DNA from: Yoonia sp.
Lineage (GTDB): Bacteria > Pseudomonadota > Alphaproteobacteria > Rhodobacterales > Rhodobacteraceae
Reading direction: 5' to 3'
Length of the DNA: 64,000 nt
Assembly: GCF_014859355.1 (NCBI RefSeq)
Contig: NZ_JACUUJ010000008.1
Coordinates: 1 to 64,000, forward strand
Part shown: positions 57,900-64,000 of the stretch, piece after piece
How the letters are laid out: each line of letters opens with the position of its first letter
Numbering within the stretch: the stretch's first letter is position 1
Notes under the pieces: generated by a model
Seen by the model: only the letters and a program-made list of their open reading frames with translations
Databases searched by the model: none
Told to the model about the DNA's origin: nothing
Translations under genes and position numbers: made by a program

Positions 57900-57985
57900 G
57901 CCCGCGTGGTGGAATGGTAGACATCGGAGACTTAAAATCTCTTGGCCGCAAGGCCGTGCCGGTTCGAGTCCGGCCGCGGGCACCA
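57900..57985 (+). tRNA. tRNA-Leu (anticodon TAA)
   Basis: Eighty-six bases including encoded CCA. The 7-bp acceptor stem is GCCCGCG / CGCGGGC with discriminator A, the anticodon stem is GGAGA / TCTCT around loop CTTAAAA with TAA at 57933-57935, there is a long variable arm, and the T loop is GTTCGAGTC. The long variable arm and size identify a class II tRNA for leucine codon UUA. Confidence 0.95.
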
Positions 57986-58029: not shown

Positions 58030-58066
58030 CCCATGGTCGGGGGGAAACCGGCCATGGGCATGTTTT
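58030..58066 (+). terminator. Hairpin downstream of tRNA-Leu
   Basis: CCCATGGTCGG / CCGGCCATGGG (one T-G pair) with a 7-base loop and then CATGTTTT. It lies 45 bp past the tRNA and abuts the convergent ligA-like stop, so it could end either transcript. Confidence 0.4.
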
Positions 58067-58431
58067 CAGGTCGCAACCGACGGGTATTCCTTGCCTTTCC
58101 AGTGCTGCAACTTCGCGGCGAATTCTTTCTGAAACGCCAGCGGGCCGCTTTTTTCCATATAGGGTTCGTCGTAGATCCCGATAAAGATCGTCAGGTTCAG
58201 GAAGAAATGCGCGCCCATTTCAAACAGCGCGACATAGTCGTGGTTGATCAGCGCCGCGCGTTCTTCAGGGGTGAAAAAGTTGACGGTGGACATTTCCGCA
58301 TCATTCAGGCGCGGCCCGATGGACTGTTCCCATGTCGCGACAAAGTTGCGCGGATCCTCGGTATAGCGTTTCAGATATTCCGGGTCGCGGTCGGTTGTGA
58401 ACAGGAATTTGTTGACGTAATACTTGCTCAT
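58066..58431 (-). CDS. LigA-type small (alpha) subunit of extradiol ring-cleavage dioxygenase
   Basis: The start at 58431 overlaps the LigB-type stop (ATGA). The 121-aa product has the LigA fold markers: [40 protein letters not shown] and [20 protein letters not shown]. In protocatechuate 4,5-dioxygenase LigA lids the LigB active site and contacts the substrate. Its gene order here (B then A) and coupling support an A/B heteromer. The aromatic substrate is not fixed by sequence. Confidence 0.9.
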
Positions 58432-59288
58432 GCTGCGGCCTCCTTTGGATACCATGTGAAATAGGCTTCCATCGTGTGGAACAGGTCAAGGTTATCGACG
58501 TAATCCGCACCTTCCGGCCCGGCGACTCCCAGCATCAGGATGAAGTTCAGGAACCCGTGGGTGGCGTTGCCCGATTTTGCCATTGATTCGTGATCGACAT
58601 TGGCAAGGATCGCGTCGATATCGCCGTTGCGCAGCCATTCAATCGCTTGGCGGTCGAATTCCGGGTCTGGCCCGGTTTCCATGAACTGGCGCGGCCCGCC
58701 CAGTTCCAGCGACAGATGCCCGGTGCCGATGGCGGCGACACGTTTGTCTGACGGGTAGGCGTCGATCGCTTTGCGGATCGCGCGGCCAAGATTGTAGAAC
58801 CGGCGGGGGCTGGGCAGGGGCGGGGCAAAGATATTGGTATAGATCGGCACGACAGGCAGGTCTGCATCGGGGCGCACGGTGATGATCGGGCAGATGATCG
58901 AATGGTCGATCTTCAATTCGTTGGAAAAGGCGAAATCGAAATCCTGATCCATCAGGTGCTGGTGCATGAAACCGGACATGTCTTCGTCACCGTCCAGCAC
59001 GTATTTCGGGATGCCGAATTCGCGTTCTTCATTATAGAATGTCGCGTCATAGCGCGGCGCCTTGCCGATCAGGAACTGTGGGCAGTTATCCAGAAATATC
59101 TGGTGGAAATGGTCGGACCCGATCATCACCAGAATGTCCGGTTTGGTGCGTTCCAGCGTTTCGCGGTAGGCCTCGATCTTGCGTTTCCATTCGGGCGCTT
59201 GCGGCATCTGCTGTTCGGGCGGCATTGTCGTCGCCCTGAGGTAGAACGGGTGGTGGGTCGAGGCAAGTGTGGCAACTAACTGAGCCAA
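58428..59288 (-). CDS. LigB-type catalytic subunit, class III extradiol dioxygenase
   Basis: The 286-aa product starts at TTG 59288, supported by AAGGAG seven bases upstream and by no nearer ATG. Iron-ligand and catalytic His residues of the LigB family are seen in [10 protein letters not shown] (12 or 13), [12 protein letters not shown] (60 or 62) and [12 protein letters not shown] (191). The region where LigB has the metal-binding Glu in SGxxxxE reads SGNATHG, giving Gly at 245. The gene follows the amidohydrolase and is coupled to ligA. The substrate may be protocatechuate, gallate or an aminated analogue. Confidence 0.9.
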
Positions 59289-59339
59289 AGTCTCACTCCT
59301 TATCTGGTCAAATGGCCGGTGCGGGCCGGGTCAGTGATG

Positions 59340-59363
59340 CCCCCGCAACAGATGTTGCGGGGG
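59340..59363 (-). promoter_or_regulatory. Strong intercistronic hairpin between amidohydrolase and dioxygenase genes
   Basis: Perfect 10-bp stem CCCCCGCAAC / GTTGCGGGGG with an AGAT loop, 6 bp past the amidohydrolase stop. There is no T tract on either side, so it is more likely a 3'-end stabiliser or processing site in a polycistronic message than a terminator. Confidence 0.55.
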
Positions 59364-59369
59364 TGTCAT

Positions 59370-60881
59370 TCAGGCAAAAAGATCGCGTTCGATTCCTGCG
59401 GCCTCGAACAGGTAGTCGCGGCTGGATTCCAGTTCCGTGCGCAGGCGGTCAATGTCAAAGCCAAGCATCTGACCTTTCCATTTCTTGATCTGACCCGCGA
59501 CCATGACAGTATCGACGTTGTTGCGTTCCATCAGGGTCACGACTGCACCGGGCACGTTGTTCAGCGGGGCCACGTTGATGGCCTGCGCATCCAGCAGAAT
59601 GATATCCGCTTCCTTGCCGGGGGTCAGTGACCCGATCTTGCGGTCCAGTTTCAACCCCTCGGCGCCGCCCATCGTGGCGTGGCGGATGGCCTGCATGCAA
59701 TTCATCAGGTCAGGGTATTCCTGCCCTGCCAGCGCCTTTTCATTGGCGAACATGCGTTGCAGCGTGATCAGCCCGCGCATCTGGGTAAAGAAATCTGCTG
59801 TCATCGTGCATTCCACGTCGGTGGAAAGCGATGTGGAAAAGCCCATGTCGATGGCTTTCTGGATCGGCGGCGTGCCGTGGCGCATGTGCATTTCTATCGG
59901 GACGGAAAGCGAGATATGCGCGCCCGCATCGGCGGCATATTTCCAGCCGTCTTCGGACATGCCTGTCATGTGGATAAAGATGTTGTCGTCGCCGAACATG
60001 CCCGCCGCGCCCAGTTCGTCGAACGTGGGTTGCATCCCGAAGGTGCCGACGACATGCAACGCGATGGGCAGACCCAGTTCGCGGCCAATTTTCCAAGCCT
60101 CTTCATAGCCGGGCAGGTAGATTTCACCGCCCATGACCATCGTGGTCAGCTGGTCCTCAGAGCTGAAATACTGTTGCTTGATGCGCGCGGCATCGGCGGG
60201 GTATTTCGCCCTTTCACCCCAGCCTTCGAAATAGCCGAAGACCCCGCGACGCCCGGCGTCGCGGAGGCCTTCGATCGCCGCATCAGAATGTTCAGGTGAG
60301 TGGTGGATCTGGCTGACATCCATGACGGTGGTCACGCCTGCATCAAGCTGGGCGATCCCGCCGAACAGCTCGTTGATATAGACGTCCTCGGGGCGATAGA
60401 CCATTGAGAATCCTTGCAGGATAGTCTCGTAGTAGTTCGACGCATTTGCCGGGCGGCCATCGTTGATCAGGATGCCGTTGGCCAGCTGGCTGCGCAGGGC
60501 CGTTTCAAACTGGTGGTGGTGGGTATCGACGAAACCGGGCATCACGACCTTGCCCGCCGCGTCGATGACAACCGCGTCCGAGGCGTCGATGTTGGCACCG
60601 ACCGCGACGATGGTCTTGCCGTCGATCAGCACATCACCAACCGCGAAATTACCAACCGCGTCATCCATTGACATGACCGCACCGCCCTTGATCAGCACGC
60701 GCCGGCCGGGTGTGCCCAGCCCCTCGGGCAGGGTGGCGGCTGCGGCTTGCTGCGCATAGGCCGTGCCTGTCAGGCCAAGGCCCGCGGTGCCCGCAGCGCC
60801 TGCAACGGCGCCGGCTTTCAGAAAGTCGCGCCGCGTTGGGCAAGGCGTCTGGGGTTTTTGGGGGTCACAAAGTCTGCACAT
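59370..60881 (-). CDS. Tat-exported amidohydrolase
   Basis: The 503-aa protein starts MCRLCDPQKP and has a twin-arginine signal (TRRDFLK, Arg at 17 and 18) with a hydrophobic stretch and cleavage near AYA-QQ at about 43. The mature part is an amidohydrolase-superfamily barrel: VVMPGFVDTHHHQFETALRS (HxH metal motif), FVGTFGMQPTFDEL-like LHVVGTFGMQPTFDELGAAG, and SLTPGKEADIILLDAQAINV near the end. The class hydrolyses C-N bonds or deaminates; Atz/Trz and hydantoinase-like substrates are possible. Being exported, it acts on a compound arriving from outside. It lies 24 bp after the IclR gene. Confidence 0.88.
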   Translation of the reverse strand: MCRLCDPQKPQTPCPTRRDFLKAGAVAGAAGTAGLGLTGTAYAQQAAAATLPEGLGTPGRRVLIKGGAVMSMDDAVGNFAVGDVLIDGKTIVAVGANIDASDAVVIDAAGKVVMPGFVDTHHHQFETALRSQLANGILINDGRPANASNYYETILQGFSMVYRPEDVYINELFGGIAQLDAGVTTVMDVSQIHHSPEHSDAAIEGLRDAGRRGVFGYFEGWGERAKYPADAARIKQQYFSSEDQLTTMVMGGEIYLPGYEEAWKIGRELGLPIALHVVGTFGMQPTFDELGAAGMFGDDNIFIHMTGMSEDGWKYAADAGAHISLSVPIEMHMRHGTPPIQKAIDMGFSTSLSTDVECTMTADFFTQMRGLITLQRMFANEKALAGQEYPDLMNCMQAIRHATMGGAEGLKLDRKIGSLTPGKEADIILLDAQAINVAPLNNVPGAVVTLMERNNVDTVMVAGQIKKWKGQMLGFDIDRLRTELESSRDYLFEAAGIERDLFA

Positions 60882-60905
60882 GTCTGGTTTCTCCTCCTGG
60901 GTGGT

Positions 60906-61766
60906 TTATTGGCCGATAACCGAGGCCAGCGCGGGATAGCGCGTCAGGGTCTGGGCAATGCTGGATGCTGCGATGCGCATTTCGGGCAGGCGTTCGCGGA
61001 TCAGATAATCGGCGTCGATCATGCCGGTGTAACCGGATGTGTTCAGCGCCGCGATCGTGCGGCCATCAACGGCGCGGATCGGCACGGCAAGGGCCGTGAT
61101 CCCGTAATCCAGCTGATCGACCGTTGTGGAATAATGCGCATCGCGCACCGCGTCGATTTCGGCGCGCAGCGCGACAGGGTCGGTGATGGTCTTGGCGGTC
61201 AGTGGTTCAATCACCAGCCCGTCGAAATACGCATCGAGATCGTCGACAGGCAGACCCGCCAAAAGAACCCGACCCAGCGATGTCGCATAGGCGGGATACC
61301 GCGCGCCAACGACGGCTGCGGCACGGCGGGCGCGCTGCACGGAACTGTGCGCGATATAGATGACATCCTTGCCGTCCAACGTGCCGACAGACGATGCATC
61401 GCCGAATTTCGCGACCAGATCGCGCAGGAAAGGCTGCAAGACCTCGTCGATTCGCGCTGCAAAATAGAATGTCGATCCCAGCGTCATGATCTTGGGGCGC
61501 AGGTGAAAGCGTTTTTCGTTCTGCCCGATATATCCGAGCGTCTTGAGCGTAATCAGGCTGCGCCGCGCGGCGGCAGGGCTAAGCGCGACCTTGCGGGCAA
61601 TCTCGCTAAGGGTCATTTCGGGGTTTGCGGCGTCGAAACATTCAAGAATAGCAAGGCCTTTGGCCAAGGCTTCGACAAATTCGGCGGGTTTTTCGGCACC
61701 GTTTGCGCGTGGTCTTCCCGATTGTGACTGGCCTGACTTGGTGGGTTCTTTGCCGCGTTCAAGCAT
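60906..61766 (-). CDS. IclR-type transcriptional regulator
   Basis: The 286-aa product has an N-terminal winged HTH (MTLSEIARKVALSPAAARRS) and the IclR effector domain (SVGTLDGKDVIYIAHSSVQR; GARYPAYATSLGRVLLAGLP; YGITALAVPIRAVDGRTIAA). The PcaR/PobR-like core (Ser-x-x-x-Gly-x-x-x-Leu in the effector-binding region) fits regulators of aromatic catabolism. It leads the amidohydrolase-ligB-ligA unit and is divergent from the citryl-CoA lyase unit, so it is the natural controller of both. A longer basic N-terminal tail (about 1-25) precedes the HTH. Confidence 0.92.
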   Translation of the reverse strand: MLERGKEPTKSGQSQSGRPRANGAEKPAEFVEALAKGLAILECFDAANPEMTLSEIARKVALSPAAARRSLITLKTLGYIGQNEKRFHLRPKIMTLGSTFYFAARIDEVLQPFLRDLVAKFGDASSVGTLDGKDVIYIAHSSVQRARRAAAVVGARYPAYATSLGRVLLAGLPVDDLDAYFDGLVIEPLTAKTITDPVALRAEIDAVRDAHYSTTVDQLDYGITALAVPIRAVDGRTIAALNTSGYTGMIDADYLIRERLPEMRIAASSIAQTLTRYPALASVIGQ

Positions 61767-61836
61767 GCTGCACCTGTGTCGTTTCCTGTGGCATCCGCAT
61801 CTCCTCTTTTGCGTTCAGGTGCGTCCCCAATAGCAG

Positions 61837-61853
61837 GCTGCGCAAATTGCAGC
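61837..61853. promoter_or_regulatory. Inverted repeat upstream of the -35 element
   Basis: GCTGC-GCAAATT-GCAGC directly abuts the TTGACG element at 61854. It is a candidate activator or repressor site for the IclR protein. Confidence 0.35.
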
Positions 61854-61882
61854 TTGACGAAAGCATAATTCGCTGCAAATAT
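61854..61882 (+). promoter_or_regulatory. Possible sigma-70 promoter of the citryl-CoA lyase unit
   Basis: TTGACG, a 17-base spacer, then AAATAT. The -35 is good (5 of 6) and the -10 is weak (3 of 6), which suits an activated or repressed promoter. It lies 45 bp upstream of the start codon. Confidence 0.4.
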
Positions 61883-61899
61883 TTCGGCAAGAGAAAAGA

Positions 61900-61916
61900 T
61901 TTTCGTTATGCGAAAA
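61900..61916. promoter_or_regulatory. Operator-like inverted repeat before the citryl-CoA lyase gene
   Basis: TTTTCG-TTATG-CGAAAA, a perfect 6+5+6 repeat between the predicted promoter and the ribosome site. A regulator bound here would block transcription; the divergent IclR gene is the obvious candidate. Confidence 0.5.
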
Positions 61917-61927
61917 AAGGAACCCAT

Positions 61928-62740
61928 ATGCGAATTGGTAAACAGGATCAGGCCTATACGGCGATTGCGACGTCAGACGCTGATTCCATCACGGTGCGTG
62001 GGCATGATTTGTGCGACGACCTGATTGGTCAGATTGATTTCAGCGATTATTTTTGGCTGCTTGTCATTGGCGAAAAGCCAACAGCGGCGCAGCGCAAGAT
62101 GCTGGATGCCTGCCTTGTTTCCATCGCAGAACACGGGCTGGTGCCCAGTGTGCAGGCCGCGCGCATGACATTGGCGGCCGGGCCGGACGCGTGGCAGGGG
62201 GCCATGGCGGCGGGTCTATTGGGCATGGGCAGTGTTGTGGCTGGCAGCACCGAAGTTTCGGGCCGGTATCTGGCCGAGGTGATGGCAAAGGCCGATTCCG
62301 ACGGCACGGATCTGGAAACCGCCGCCATCGCCAGCCTGCAAGAGCTGAAAGCGCAGCGCAAAAAGGTGCCGGGCCTTGGGCACCCACAACACAGCGGCGG
62401 CGACCCGCGTGCGAACAAGCTGCTGGCGATCGCAGATGAACAAGGTATTTCCGGCCGCTATGTCGAAACGCTGCGCGTGTTGGCCAAACACGCCCCCGGG
62501 ATCATCAACCGCCCGCTGCCGATTAACGTGTCGGGCGCGATTCCTGCGGTGATCCTTGATGCCGGTTGGCCGCTTGAGGCGCTGAAGGCGGTGCCGCTTT
62601 TGGCGCGCACGGCGGGGCTTGCGGCGCATCTTTATGAGGAATCGCTGCGATCAATCGGTTTCATCATGTCACATGCCGCCGATCAGGCGATCACCTACGA
62701 CGGGGAACCATCCGGTTCTGCCGCGAAGCACTTAGCGTAA
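61928..62740 (+). CDS. Citryl-CoA lyase / citrate synthase-like protein
   Basis: The start at 61928 (MRIGKQDQAYTAIATSDADS) follows AAAAGGA. The 270-aa product is a short citrate-synthase-fold protein: ITVRGHDLCDDLIGQIDFSD at the N-terminus, MAAGLLGMGSVVAGSTEVSG, the substrate loop VPGLGHPQHSGGDPRANKLL, and NVSGAIPAVILDAGWPLEAL. The length and sequence fit the citryl-CoA lyase group, which splits a citryl-CoA-like thioester to an acyl-CoA and a 2-oxoacid rather than making citrate. The next gene, a CoA-transferase, would make the CoA ester. It is the first gene of this unit. Confidence 0.88.
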   Translation: MRIGKQDQAYTAIATSDADSITVRGHDLCDDLIGQIDFSDYFWLLVIGEKPTAAQRKMLDACLVSIAEHGLVPSVQAARMTLAAGPDAWQGAMAAGLLGMGSVVAGSTEVSGRYLAEVMAKADSDGTDLETAAIASLQELKAQRKKVPGLGHPQHSGGDPRANKLLAIADEQGISGRYVETLRVLAKHAPGIINRPLPINVSGAIPAVILDAGWPLEALKAVPLLARTAGLAAHLYEESLRSIGFIMSHAADQAITYDGEPSGSAAKHLA

Positions 62741-62749
62741 GGCGGGAAC

Positions 62750-63898
62750 ATGGTCAAAATTCTCAAAGACATCCGCGTCATCGAACTGGGCACCTATATC
62801 ACTGGTCCCGCTGCCGGCATGCATTTGGCCGATCTGGGCGCTGACGTGATCAAGGTCGAACGCCCCGGCACGGGCGATCCATTCCGCGCGTTTAAGGGCG
62901 GGCTCTATTCGCCGCATTACCAGACCTATAACCGCAACAAACGGTCCATCGCGCTGGATACCCAAAACCCCGATGATCTGGCAGTCCTGCACGAACTTGT
63001 GGCAAGTGCGGATGTGTTTATCCAGAATTTCCGTCCCGGTGTGGCTGAAAAGCTGGGCGCGGGCGAAGATGACCTGCGCAAAACCAACCCCAATCTGATC
63101 TATTGCGCCATCTCCGGTTTCGGCAAATCCGGCCCGTATCGCGACCGCCCCGCCTATGACACCGTAGCGCAGGCTGCGAGCGGTTATTTGCGCCTGCTGA
63201 CGCCGCCCGAAAACCCGCGCGTTATCGGGCCAGCGATTGCTGATGCCGTCACCGGCCAATATGCCGCCATGGGGATCATGGCCGCGCTGCTGGAACGTGC
63301 CAGCACGGGTCAAGGCCGCAGGCTGGATATCTCGATGTTGGAGGCGATGGCGCATTTCAACCTTGATAGCTTTACCCACTTTTATTCCGAGGGCGAGGTC
63401 ATGGGCCCGCTGTCGCGCCCGGTTGTCTCGCAAAGCTATACGTTTGAATGCAGCGACGGCAAATGGGTGGCGATCCACATGTCGTCGCCCACGAAATTCT
63501 GGCAAGGGTTTCTTGCCGCAACCGGACAAGACGCGCTGGCCCAAGATCCGCGTTTTGCCGAACGGATGGAGCGGATCAAGCATCAGGATGACATGATCGA
63601 GATTTTCACTCCGATTTTCAAAACCGATACGCGCGATGCATGGTGCGCGAAACTGGACGCCGCCGAGGTGCCCCATTCGCCCGCCTATGATGCGGATGAG
63701 GCGCTGGAAGATCCACAAGCGCAGCACCTGCGCATCGCGGTCACATCACAGCACCCCGAAATGGGGGCCTTTACCACGGTTCGCCCGCCATACAGCTTTG
63801 ATGACACGCCTGAATTCGACGTGCTGGCGCCACCGACGCTGGATGAACACGGCGCTGAAATCCGGGCTGAACTGCGCAAGATCAGCAAGGCCGGATAA
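62750..63898 (+). CDS. CaiB/BaiF class III CoA-transferase
   Basis: The 382-aa product has the family N-terminus VIELGTYITGPAAGMHLADL and GADVIKVERPGTGDPFR, then NRNKRSIALDTQNPDDLAVL, GRRLDISMLEAMAHF (catalytic Asp region), and PHSPAYDADEALEDPQAQHL. These enzymes move CoA between acids through an aspartyl anhydride. It lies 9 bp after the citryl-CoA lyase gene, so the pair probably forms and then splits the same tricarboxylic CoA thioester. Confidence 0.93.
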   Translation: MVKILKDIRVIELGTYITGPAAGMHLADLGADVIKVERPGTGDPFRAFKGGLYSPHYQTYNRNKRSIALDTQNPDDLAVLHELVASADVFIQNFRPGVAEKLGAGEDDLRKTNPNLIYCAISGFGKSGPYRDRPAYDTVAQAASGYLRLLTPPENPRVIGPAIADAVTGQYAAMGIMAALLERASTGQGRRLDISMLEAMAHFNLDSFTHFYSEGEVMGPLSRPVVSQSYTFECSDGKWVAIHMSSPTKFWQGFLAATGQDALAQDPRFAERMERIKHQDDMIEIFTPIFKTDTRDAWCAKLDAAEVPHSPAYDADEALEDPQAQHLRIAVTSQHPEMGAFTTVRPPYSFDDTPEFDVLAPPTLDEHGAEIRAELRKISKAG

Positions 63899-63927
63899 AC
63901 CAGACATTCACCAAGGGAGGAATACAC

Positions 63928-64000
63928 ATGAGCGATCCGGACAACCCAAAATCAGTGCCCGCCGCCGCTGTGCGCGAAGCCAGCGGCGCGATGCTGCAAA
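63928..64000 (+). CDS. 5' end of an unidentified gene (cut by window edge)
   Basis: An ATG at 63928 follows GGGAGGAA and opens a frame of 24 visible codons (MSDPDNPKSVPAAAVREASG and onward). It is the third gene of the citryl-CoA lyase unit, 29 bp past the CoA-transferase. Too short to identify. Confidence 0.6.
   Translation, partial: MSDPDNPKSVPAAAVREASGAMLQ

Follow-up and report, generated by a model that had tools for sequence, protein, structure and literature searches.

A transferable gene cluster in Yoonia sp. that may couple an exchangeable ring-opening enzyme to CoA-dependent cleavage of the product

At the right-hand end of a 64,000-nucleotide stretch of Yoonia sp. DNA (the window; bases 1–64000 of the 83,333-base contig NZ_JACUUJ010000008.1), genes resembling those of an aromatic ring-opening dioxygenase stand back to back with a gene for a citryl-coenzyme A (CoA)-lyase-like protein. 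Do these two halves serve one pathway, and if so, what does it degrade? The minus-strand arm reads iclR (60906–61766), an amidohydrolase gene (59370–60881), ligB (58428–59288) and ligA (58066–58431), while the plus-strand arm begins with the lyase gene (61928–62740) and a gene for a class III (CaiB-type) CoA-transferase (62750–63898). All of these genes had been described in a sequence-only reading of the window, and Pfam and NCBIfam matches confirm their presence. We propose that the locus is a catabolic cluster that can pass between genomes and degrades a six-membered ring rich in oxygen: an exchangeable enzyme opens the ring, and the product undergoes a CoA-dependent split. We put the probability of this scheme as a whole at about one half.

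To define how the genes travel, we assembled 92 loci on the basis of their LigB. A scan of species genomes supplied 80 and plasmid records ten (of 11 with LigB of at least 60% identity); the other two are the window's own and that of genome G158, from a second genus of the same family. The scan gave 515 LigB relatives, of which the best 80, all at least 75% identical, were kept; co-occurrence here is therefore that of close relatives. Two loci (L005 and L048) share the same length and identities and appear to be one contig, making 91 distinct loci. Genes were counted by blastp with 50–55% coverage, and two passes differed slightly (CoA-transferase, 73 versus 74; IclR, 71 versus 73). Among the 92 loci, ligA is seen in 92, ligB in 91, the lyase gene in 76, the CoA-transferase gene in 73, iclR in 71 and the amidohydrolase gene in 61. 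The loci come from Alphaproteobacteria and Actinobacteria with marine and terrestrial hosts; those on plasmids include Martelella, Aminobacter, Sinorhizobium and Rhodococcus and show several gene orders. In some loci (e.g. L040) the arms are co-directional, indicating that their linkage is more than a shared promoter region. G158 carries the cluster in identical order (LigB 95%, lyase 86% and CoA-transferase 86% identical), and the window's putA-like, lrp-like and copper-related flanks have no matches in the 20 kb around it. We conclude that the cluster is real, conserved, horizontally spread and catabolic.

The two arms also share a probable operator, the palindrome TTTCG-N5-CGAAA (61901–61915), which lies 12 bases 5′ of the lyase start codon and is the single exact match within the window (0.09 expected). 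From 87 lyase loci we took the 48 in which the lyase starts with MRIGK and an iclR gene lies on the opposite strand. In 44 of these, the palindrome occurs no more than 260 bases upstream of the lyase start, compared to 0.01 expected per 48 after mononucleotide shuffling. The regulator is PcaR/PcaU/PobR-like; its IclR domains pass their thresholds (HTH_IclR; IclR_C, 110.2 bits), and its match to TIGR02431 (238.9 bits) falls below the cut-off of 284.75. Presumably, this protein pairs with the palindrome and controls both arms. The sequence-only reading had joined the divergent halves by their shared regulator and operator; the co-occurrence data clearly strengthen that link, and together with the palindrome they support treating the halves as one system.

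We had expected LigB to be common in the family, and this expectation failed. LigB of at least 95% identity was found in only 2 of 198 same-family genomes (next match, 36%), and a search of 385 genomes of the class at E 1e-30 gave no further LigB match above 38% identity. Lyase orthologs (at least 72% identity; next match, 51%) are present in 13 of the 198. Two of these 13 carry LigB (95–100%) and the other 11 carry a gene for an intradiol dioxygenase, with no genome having both and none having neither. The intradiol protein (at least 72% identical to that of genome G148; next match, 49%) is confined to those same 11 genomes. Under independent draws, the chance of all 11 falling within the 13 would be 2e-16, a value that overstates the association, as the genomes are related. 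The intradiol gene adjoins the lyase gene in 10 of the 11 genomes, the two being apart in G018. In the 10 linked loci, CoA-transferase (10), IclR (10), DctM (9), amidohydrolase (8), flavin mononucleotide (FMN) reductase (8) and YciI-like (5) genes are found alongside. Of the 11 lyase loci with an intradiol opener, 10 retain the palindrome. On a lyase tree of 66 rows (12, 13, 13, 11 and 17 from five groups), the intradiol label has to change five times, and well-supported branches force two or more of these changes. From these patterns we infer that one ring opener can be exchanged for another, the rest of the cluster being largely shared. If so, two unrelated oxygenase families would be alternative parts of one pathway. 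The intradiol enzyme in place of LigBA in 11 of the 13 genomes weakens the case, made in the sequence-only reading, for ring opening by LigAB.

The LigB-like protein (286 residues, TTG start) matches PF02900 at 100.5 bits (cut-off 26.3), and its reading frame overlaps that of the 121-residue LigA-like protein by 4 bases. The only Pfam match of the latter is PF07746, at 17.0 bits, below the 25.3 cut-off; PF07746 is nonetheless the top match in all seven LigA-like proteins scanned, with those of L111 (26.3 bits) and L043 (36.8 bits) exceeding the cut-off. No convincing solved relative of LigA-like was found. For LigB-like, the closest are gallate dioxygenase (3wku) and protocatechuate 4,5-dioxygenase (1b4u). 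Like LigAB and DesB, it belongs to the LigB family, has a LigA-like partner, and retains both iron-ligand histidines and the active-site histidine of the VDH motif. Unlike them, it has Gly245 where we take the glutamate ligand (Glu242) to be and, in the motif GTGHLSL, Leu194 where GTGGLSH has what is presumably the catalytic His195; an invariant histidine stands three residues before the leucine. Both changes hold across the group: 90 of 91 loci have the glycine-bearing motif, and the same number have GTGHLSL or GSGHLSL. Glutamate is kept in 19 of 21 distant LigB frames aligned, and Glu-to-Gly is seen also in Rhizobium rhizogenes K84 and Polymorphobacter (38–40% identical). Thus, of the features that define a class III extradiol enzyme, the LigB domain is present, while the 2-His-1-Glu iron site and His195 are not. 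Because these residues are missing, we label the pair LigBA-like and keep it out of the class III extradiol dioxygenases, where the sequence-only reading had placed it. Such a branch raises the question of whether ring opening by this fold needs a 2-His-1-carboxylate site.

Two further LigB loci may be mentioned here. In Polymorphobacter megasporae, from a lichen (L044), three RraA/HMG-aldolase-type genes are located ∼5 kb from a 40%-identical LigBA. At about that distance there is also a gene whose annotation is protocatechuate 3,4-dioxygenase and which overlaps a LigB-like match of 27% identity. On plasmid pNgVX of Neorhizobium galegae (L042), ligB matches in two pieces that are not annotated as one gene, probably a broken copy.

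The enzyme that replaces LigBA is closest by sequence to hydroxyquinol 1,2-dioxygenase (PnpC, 3n9t; 1tmx; 8r2v), scoring 188–212 bits against the solved hydroxyquinol enzymes and at most 121 against those of catechol type. It differs from them in forming a separate branch, to which other family members are at most 49% identical. The motif LLSD occurs in 11 of 11 proteins and the histidine motif in 10 of 11. We take the aspartate of LLSD to bind the 4-hydroxyl in hydroxyquinol dioxygenase, and its retention in every protein suggests a further ring oxygen opposite. Four of 10 intradiol clusters also contain an acylpyruvase-like FAH hydrolase gene, which would fit a product of the 2,4-dioxo acid type.

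Downstream of ring opening, we propose a split at a CoA ester. The 270-residue lyase-like protein matches Citrate_synt at 75.8 bits and NF004868 at 312.6 bits (cut-off 193), and its best solved relative is citryl-CoA lyase (6hxp). H69, H152, R161, D211 and R227 are invariant in 18 of 18 sequences. By analogy with citrate synthase, we take the two histidines and the aspartate to be catalytic and the two arginines to bind carboxylate. With these residues kept, as the sequence-only reading of a citrate-synthase-fold lyase would have it, the enzyme should cut a β-hydroxy acyl-CoA; by family score and catalytic residues it belongs with the citryl-CoA lyases. What sets the gene apart from that of 6hxp is its setting among ring-opening genes and in the company of a class III CoA-transferase. 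The transferase (PF02515, 362.6 bits) is nearest among solved enzymes to succinate–hydroxymethylglutarate CoA-transferase (9br6). The motif that presumably contains its catalytic aspartate is found in loose form in 85 of 85 sequences and in strict form in 59 of 85.

Relatives of the lyase occur in other settings as well. In L166, L167, L168 and L171, lyases of 48–52% identity each have as neighbour a gene from a single cluster, represented in L166 by a PaaK-like CoA ligase, a candidate for another CoA-activating partner of the lyase family. In L172 and L173, the lyase relatives (36%) are accompanied by genes for biotin carboxylase, an HMGL-like protein and acyl-CoA dehydrogenase, perhaps a branched-acid pathway.

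The amidohydrolase is of the ATZ/TRZ type (PRK08204 family; PF01979, 94.4 bits; NF006056, 414 bits with a cut-off of 391), and the metal-site HxH motif is seen in 54 of 55 relatives of at least 60% identity. The sequence-only reading had it free an aromatic from an amide or related conjugate outside the cytoplasm. In the window copy, the twin-arginine translocation (Tat) leader is indeed clear (TAT_signal, 27.2 bits; cut-off 22.7). Among 67 amidohydrolase frames, however, the strict pattern is found in 20, the window's included, and a loose RR in 37, partly by chance; the close relatives in L005 and L155 keep the MCRLC start and have a leader without twin arginine. Extracytoplasmic cleavage is thus not a feature of this group in general.

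Past position 64000, where the sequence-only reading had anticipated at least one further gene, a YciI-like gene (63928–64332, spanning the window edge) comes next in the plus arm. It is followed by the tripartite ATP-independent periplasmic (TRAP) transporter genes dctP (64352–65422), dctQ (65435–65998) and dctM (65995–67308) and, last, an NADPH FMN reductase gene (67326–67850), all on the plus strand. DctM is found in 42 of the 92 loci, the FMN reductase in 39, DctP in 38 and the YciI-like protein in 35. The TRAP-binding-protein structures nearest to DctP are too distant to suggest a ligand. Of 104 loci, 16 have an additional, MetE-like gene, which in 13 cases lies downstream in the regulator/amidohydrolase arm; the substrate thus probably often carries a methyl group. 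In G018 this gene directly follows the intradiol gene.

From this gene content we infer the chemical steps, their order and the kind of substrate. The amidohydrolase would remove a nitrogen substituent, and the TRAP transporter would import the acid. Where present, the MetE-like methyltransferase would take off the methyl group, and the FMN reductase would hold the ring in reduced, hydroxylated form. The ring would then be opened, by the altered LigBA in the window or by the hydroxyquinol-1,2-dioxygenase-like intradiol enzyme in the 11 same-family relatives, to give a product with a β-hydroxy acid arm, R-C(OH)(X)-CH2-COOH. Intradiol and extradiol enzymes could feed the same CoA-transferase and lyase, because three neighbouring ring oxygens would make the cut bond identical. 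The CoA-transferase would convert the arm to its CoA ester, and the citryl-CoA-lyase-like enzyme would cleave the ester into acetyl-CoA and R-CO-X, a keto acid; where R bears a 2-oxo acid, the acylpyruvase-like FAH hydrolase would complete the breakdown. LigAB homologues are common to this scheme and the lig/gal 4,5-cleavage pathway, with the difference that a CoA-dependent split would take the place of the aldolase. In line with the sequence-only reading, the whole genome contains no match to the LigK-type (PF03737) or LigI/LigJ-type (PF04909) families, which the same searches found in 7 and 6 of 14 control genomes, respectively; LigC, the unrelated hydratase GalB and the tautomerase LigU/GalD were not searched. 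If the scheme is right, marine Roseobacter-type bacteria, rhizobia and Arthrobacter/Rhodococcus share a pathway in which ring opening leads on to a CoA-dependent cleavage of the citrate-lyase type. Literature searches, judged by the titles listed, gave no paper joining citryl-CoA lyase with a ring-cleavage pathway; PMC13118837, the one paper found to contain both 'citryl-CoA lyase' and 'extradiol', concerns unrelated Streptomyces loci in the parts we consulted.

Several observations weigh against this scheme. Actinobacterial lyases are only 36–42% identical to the window's and, in a tree that carries a long-branch warning, group with lyases of other clusters, suggesting that the pairing may have arisen repeatedly or that the reaction may differ. 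Sixteen loci have LigBA without the lyase; 15 of these are firm, and L046 ends at a contig edge. Whole-genome searches of 13 of these genomes, which may be incomplete, gave no lyase ortholog (three matches of 47%, 31% and 30%). Neighbours of LigBA in the 16 loci include cytochrome P450 (10), GMC oxidoreductase (5), M20 hydrolase (5) and FAH (5) genes, and LigBA thus appears to work in another setting as well. A LeuD-like gene, similar to that for the 3-isopropylmalate dehydratase small subunit and possibly serving a catabolic hydration, is found close to ligBA or directly next to it in 4 of 13 actinobacterial loci (L035, L111, L117 and L124), suggesting a step that the scheme does not need. 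No MetE-like gene was found in the window's own genome, in a search without a positive control. The NCBIfam catechol/chlorocatechol models match the intradiol protein at 133–149 bits, below their cut-offs. Lastly, the Mantel correlations of LigB with lyase (0.75) and transferase (0.77) are confounded by kinship, which is not separable from function here.

Which ring might be the substrate? No LeuD-like gene was seen in 63 alphaproteobacterial LigBA-plus-lyase loci or 10 intradiol loci (other hydratase types were not searched), so the hydroxyl may already be in the substrate. A methylated ring oxygenated at positions 1, 2, 3 and 5 would fit most of the constraints, and such a ring is the core of gadusol and the mycosporines, with oxygens at those positions, a methoxy group at position 2, nitrogen substituents and a tertiary alcohol. 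Its amino acid would be stripped off by the amidohydrolase and its methyl group by the MetE-like enzyme. Either opener, acting on the 1,2,3-trioxygenated ring, would yield the same HOOC-CO-CH2-C(OH)(CH2OH)-CH2-COOH. As this is already a β-hydroxy acid, no hydratase would be needed, and the pathway would end in acetyl-CoA and a 2,4-dioxo acid that the FAH hydrolase could take on. We advance the bacterial breakdown of mycosporine-like amino acids and gadusols, the sunscreens of algae, cyanobacteria and fungi, as a tentative assignment that is itself rather unlikely. Were it true, the altered LigBA would be an oxygenase of a new kind, one that acts on a non-aromatic enediol. The passages of PMC3083659 concerned attribute to Vibrio harveyi a conversion of shinorine and porphyra-334 into mycosporine-glycine and 4-deoxygadusol and name no genes; the titles listed in our literature searches likewise named none for the breakdown of mycosporine-like amino acids.

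Somewhat less probable is the route of the sequence-only reading, in which a gallate-like benzoate is opened to 4-oxalomesaconate and hydrated to 4-carboxy-4-hydroxy-2-oxoadipate, whose CoA ester, a possible lyase substrate, would be split to acetyl-CoA and 2,4-dioxoglutarate in place of the LigK aldolase step. Extradiol or intradiol opening of a 1,2,3-trihydroxy ring can yield the same product, which fits the alternation of openers. The lack of LigK- and LigI/LigJ-type families and the two presumed carboxylate-binding arginine positions of the lyase also agree with this route, and the actinobacterial LeuD-like genes could hydrate a substituted maleate. However, a hydratase is required throughout, and the alphaproteobacterial clusters lack the LeuD-like gene, the one type searched for. 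LigB is without the glutamate and histidine of gallate and protocatechuate dioxygenases, the alternative opener is of hydroxyquinol rather than protocatechuate type, and the amidohydrolase and MetE-like genes are left without a role.

A shade more doubtful again is a phenol, for example 1,2,3,5-tetrahydroxybenzene from phloroglucinol or a methoxyhydroquinone, that would be opened to a β-keto acid, with the lyase-like enzyme catalysing an unexpected retro-Claisen step. The hydroxyquinol-type opener would suit such a substrate, as would the quinone-reductase-like FMN reductase (39 of 92 loci), an MhpA-like hydroxylase in 3 of 13 actinobacterial loci, the P450 genes of 10 of the 16 lyase-less loci and the FAH genes of the intradiol clusters. 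A β-keto acyl-CoA would need a thiolase, though, and none was seen among the proteins scanned with Pfam, which were part of the loci's proteins; citrate-synthase-type lyases, for their part, cut β-hydroxy acyl-CoA.

Alternatively, LigBA may no longer be an oxygenase but a metal enzyme of another kind (hydrolase, lyase or isomerase), with the lyase unit acting before ring opening, for example by taking an acetic-acid arm off a cyclic tertiary alcohol to leave a quinone for the FMN reductase. The near-universal Glu-to-Gly and His-to-Leu changes speak for this, as does the FMN reductase in 39 of 92 loci. Arguing against this idea, which we regard as improbable, LigBA alternates one for one with a motif-keeping intradiol dioxygenase in the same cluster, as if both performed the same oxidative opening, and three active-site histidines, two of them iron ligands, are retained. 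Finally, two unrelated neighbouring operons with a common promoter region would account for the 15 firm LigBA loci without lyase but hardly for the presence of both halves in 76 of 92 loci, in several orders including co-directional ones, or for the clean partition of ring openers among lyase genomes, making this explanation very improbable indeed.

Other known pathways were considered and set aside. Cleavage of the naringenin/isoflavone A-ring involves an FdeC-like protein described, in the part of PMC11069340 consulted, as a putative glyoxalase rather than a LigB protein, and riboflavin catabolism uses other enzymes, according to the corresponding part of PMC12746152. Nothing relevant appeared among the titles listed for homarine and trigonelline. 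3,4-Dihydroxypyridine was rejected as the substrate of the lyase clusters, since the main text of PMC7356986, as far as consulted, includes no CoA step.

For the lyase-less Rhizobium-type loci (L037, L038, L059, L077–L079, L084, L088, L091, L104 and L120), 3,4-dihydroxypyridine is still possible. The pathway enzymes (PydA in Rhizobium; Kpi in Arthrobacter, PMC7356986) include ring openers of the LigB or amidohydrolase family together with α/β and FAH hydrolases, resembling some of these loci; the likeness of PydA is by description in the parts of that source consulted, not by sequence. Near the Rhizobium-type ligBA genes lie some of the following: genes for a DAHL-domain sensor kinase (VirA-like by the annotation of one record), a di-haem cytochrome c peroxidase, P450, and M20, GMC and FAH proteins. 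These loci probably represent a second pathway with the same ring opener.

In the window, a tRNA-Leu (TAA) gene (57900–57985, plus strand) borders the left end of the cluster, just past ligA, and is a possible insertion point; no tRNA gene was found in the G158 stretches (L005 and L032). On the other side, copper-related genes (PCuAC, SCO1, P-type ATPase and FixH) follow the FMN reductase gene. Elsewhere in the same genome, a second contig (C64; locus L174) carries another pair of CoA-transferase-like (34%) and lyase-like (31%) genes, adjoining a PF05145 (AbrB) gene.

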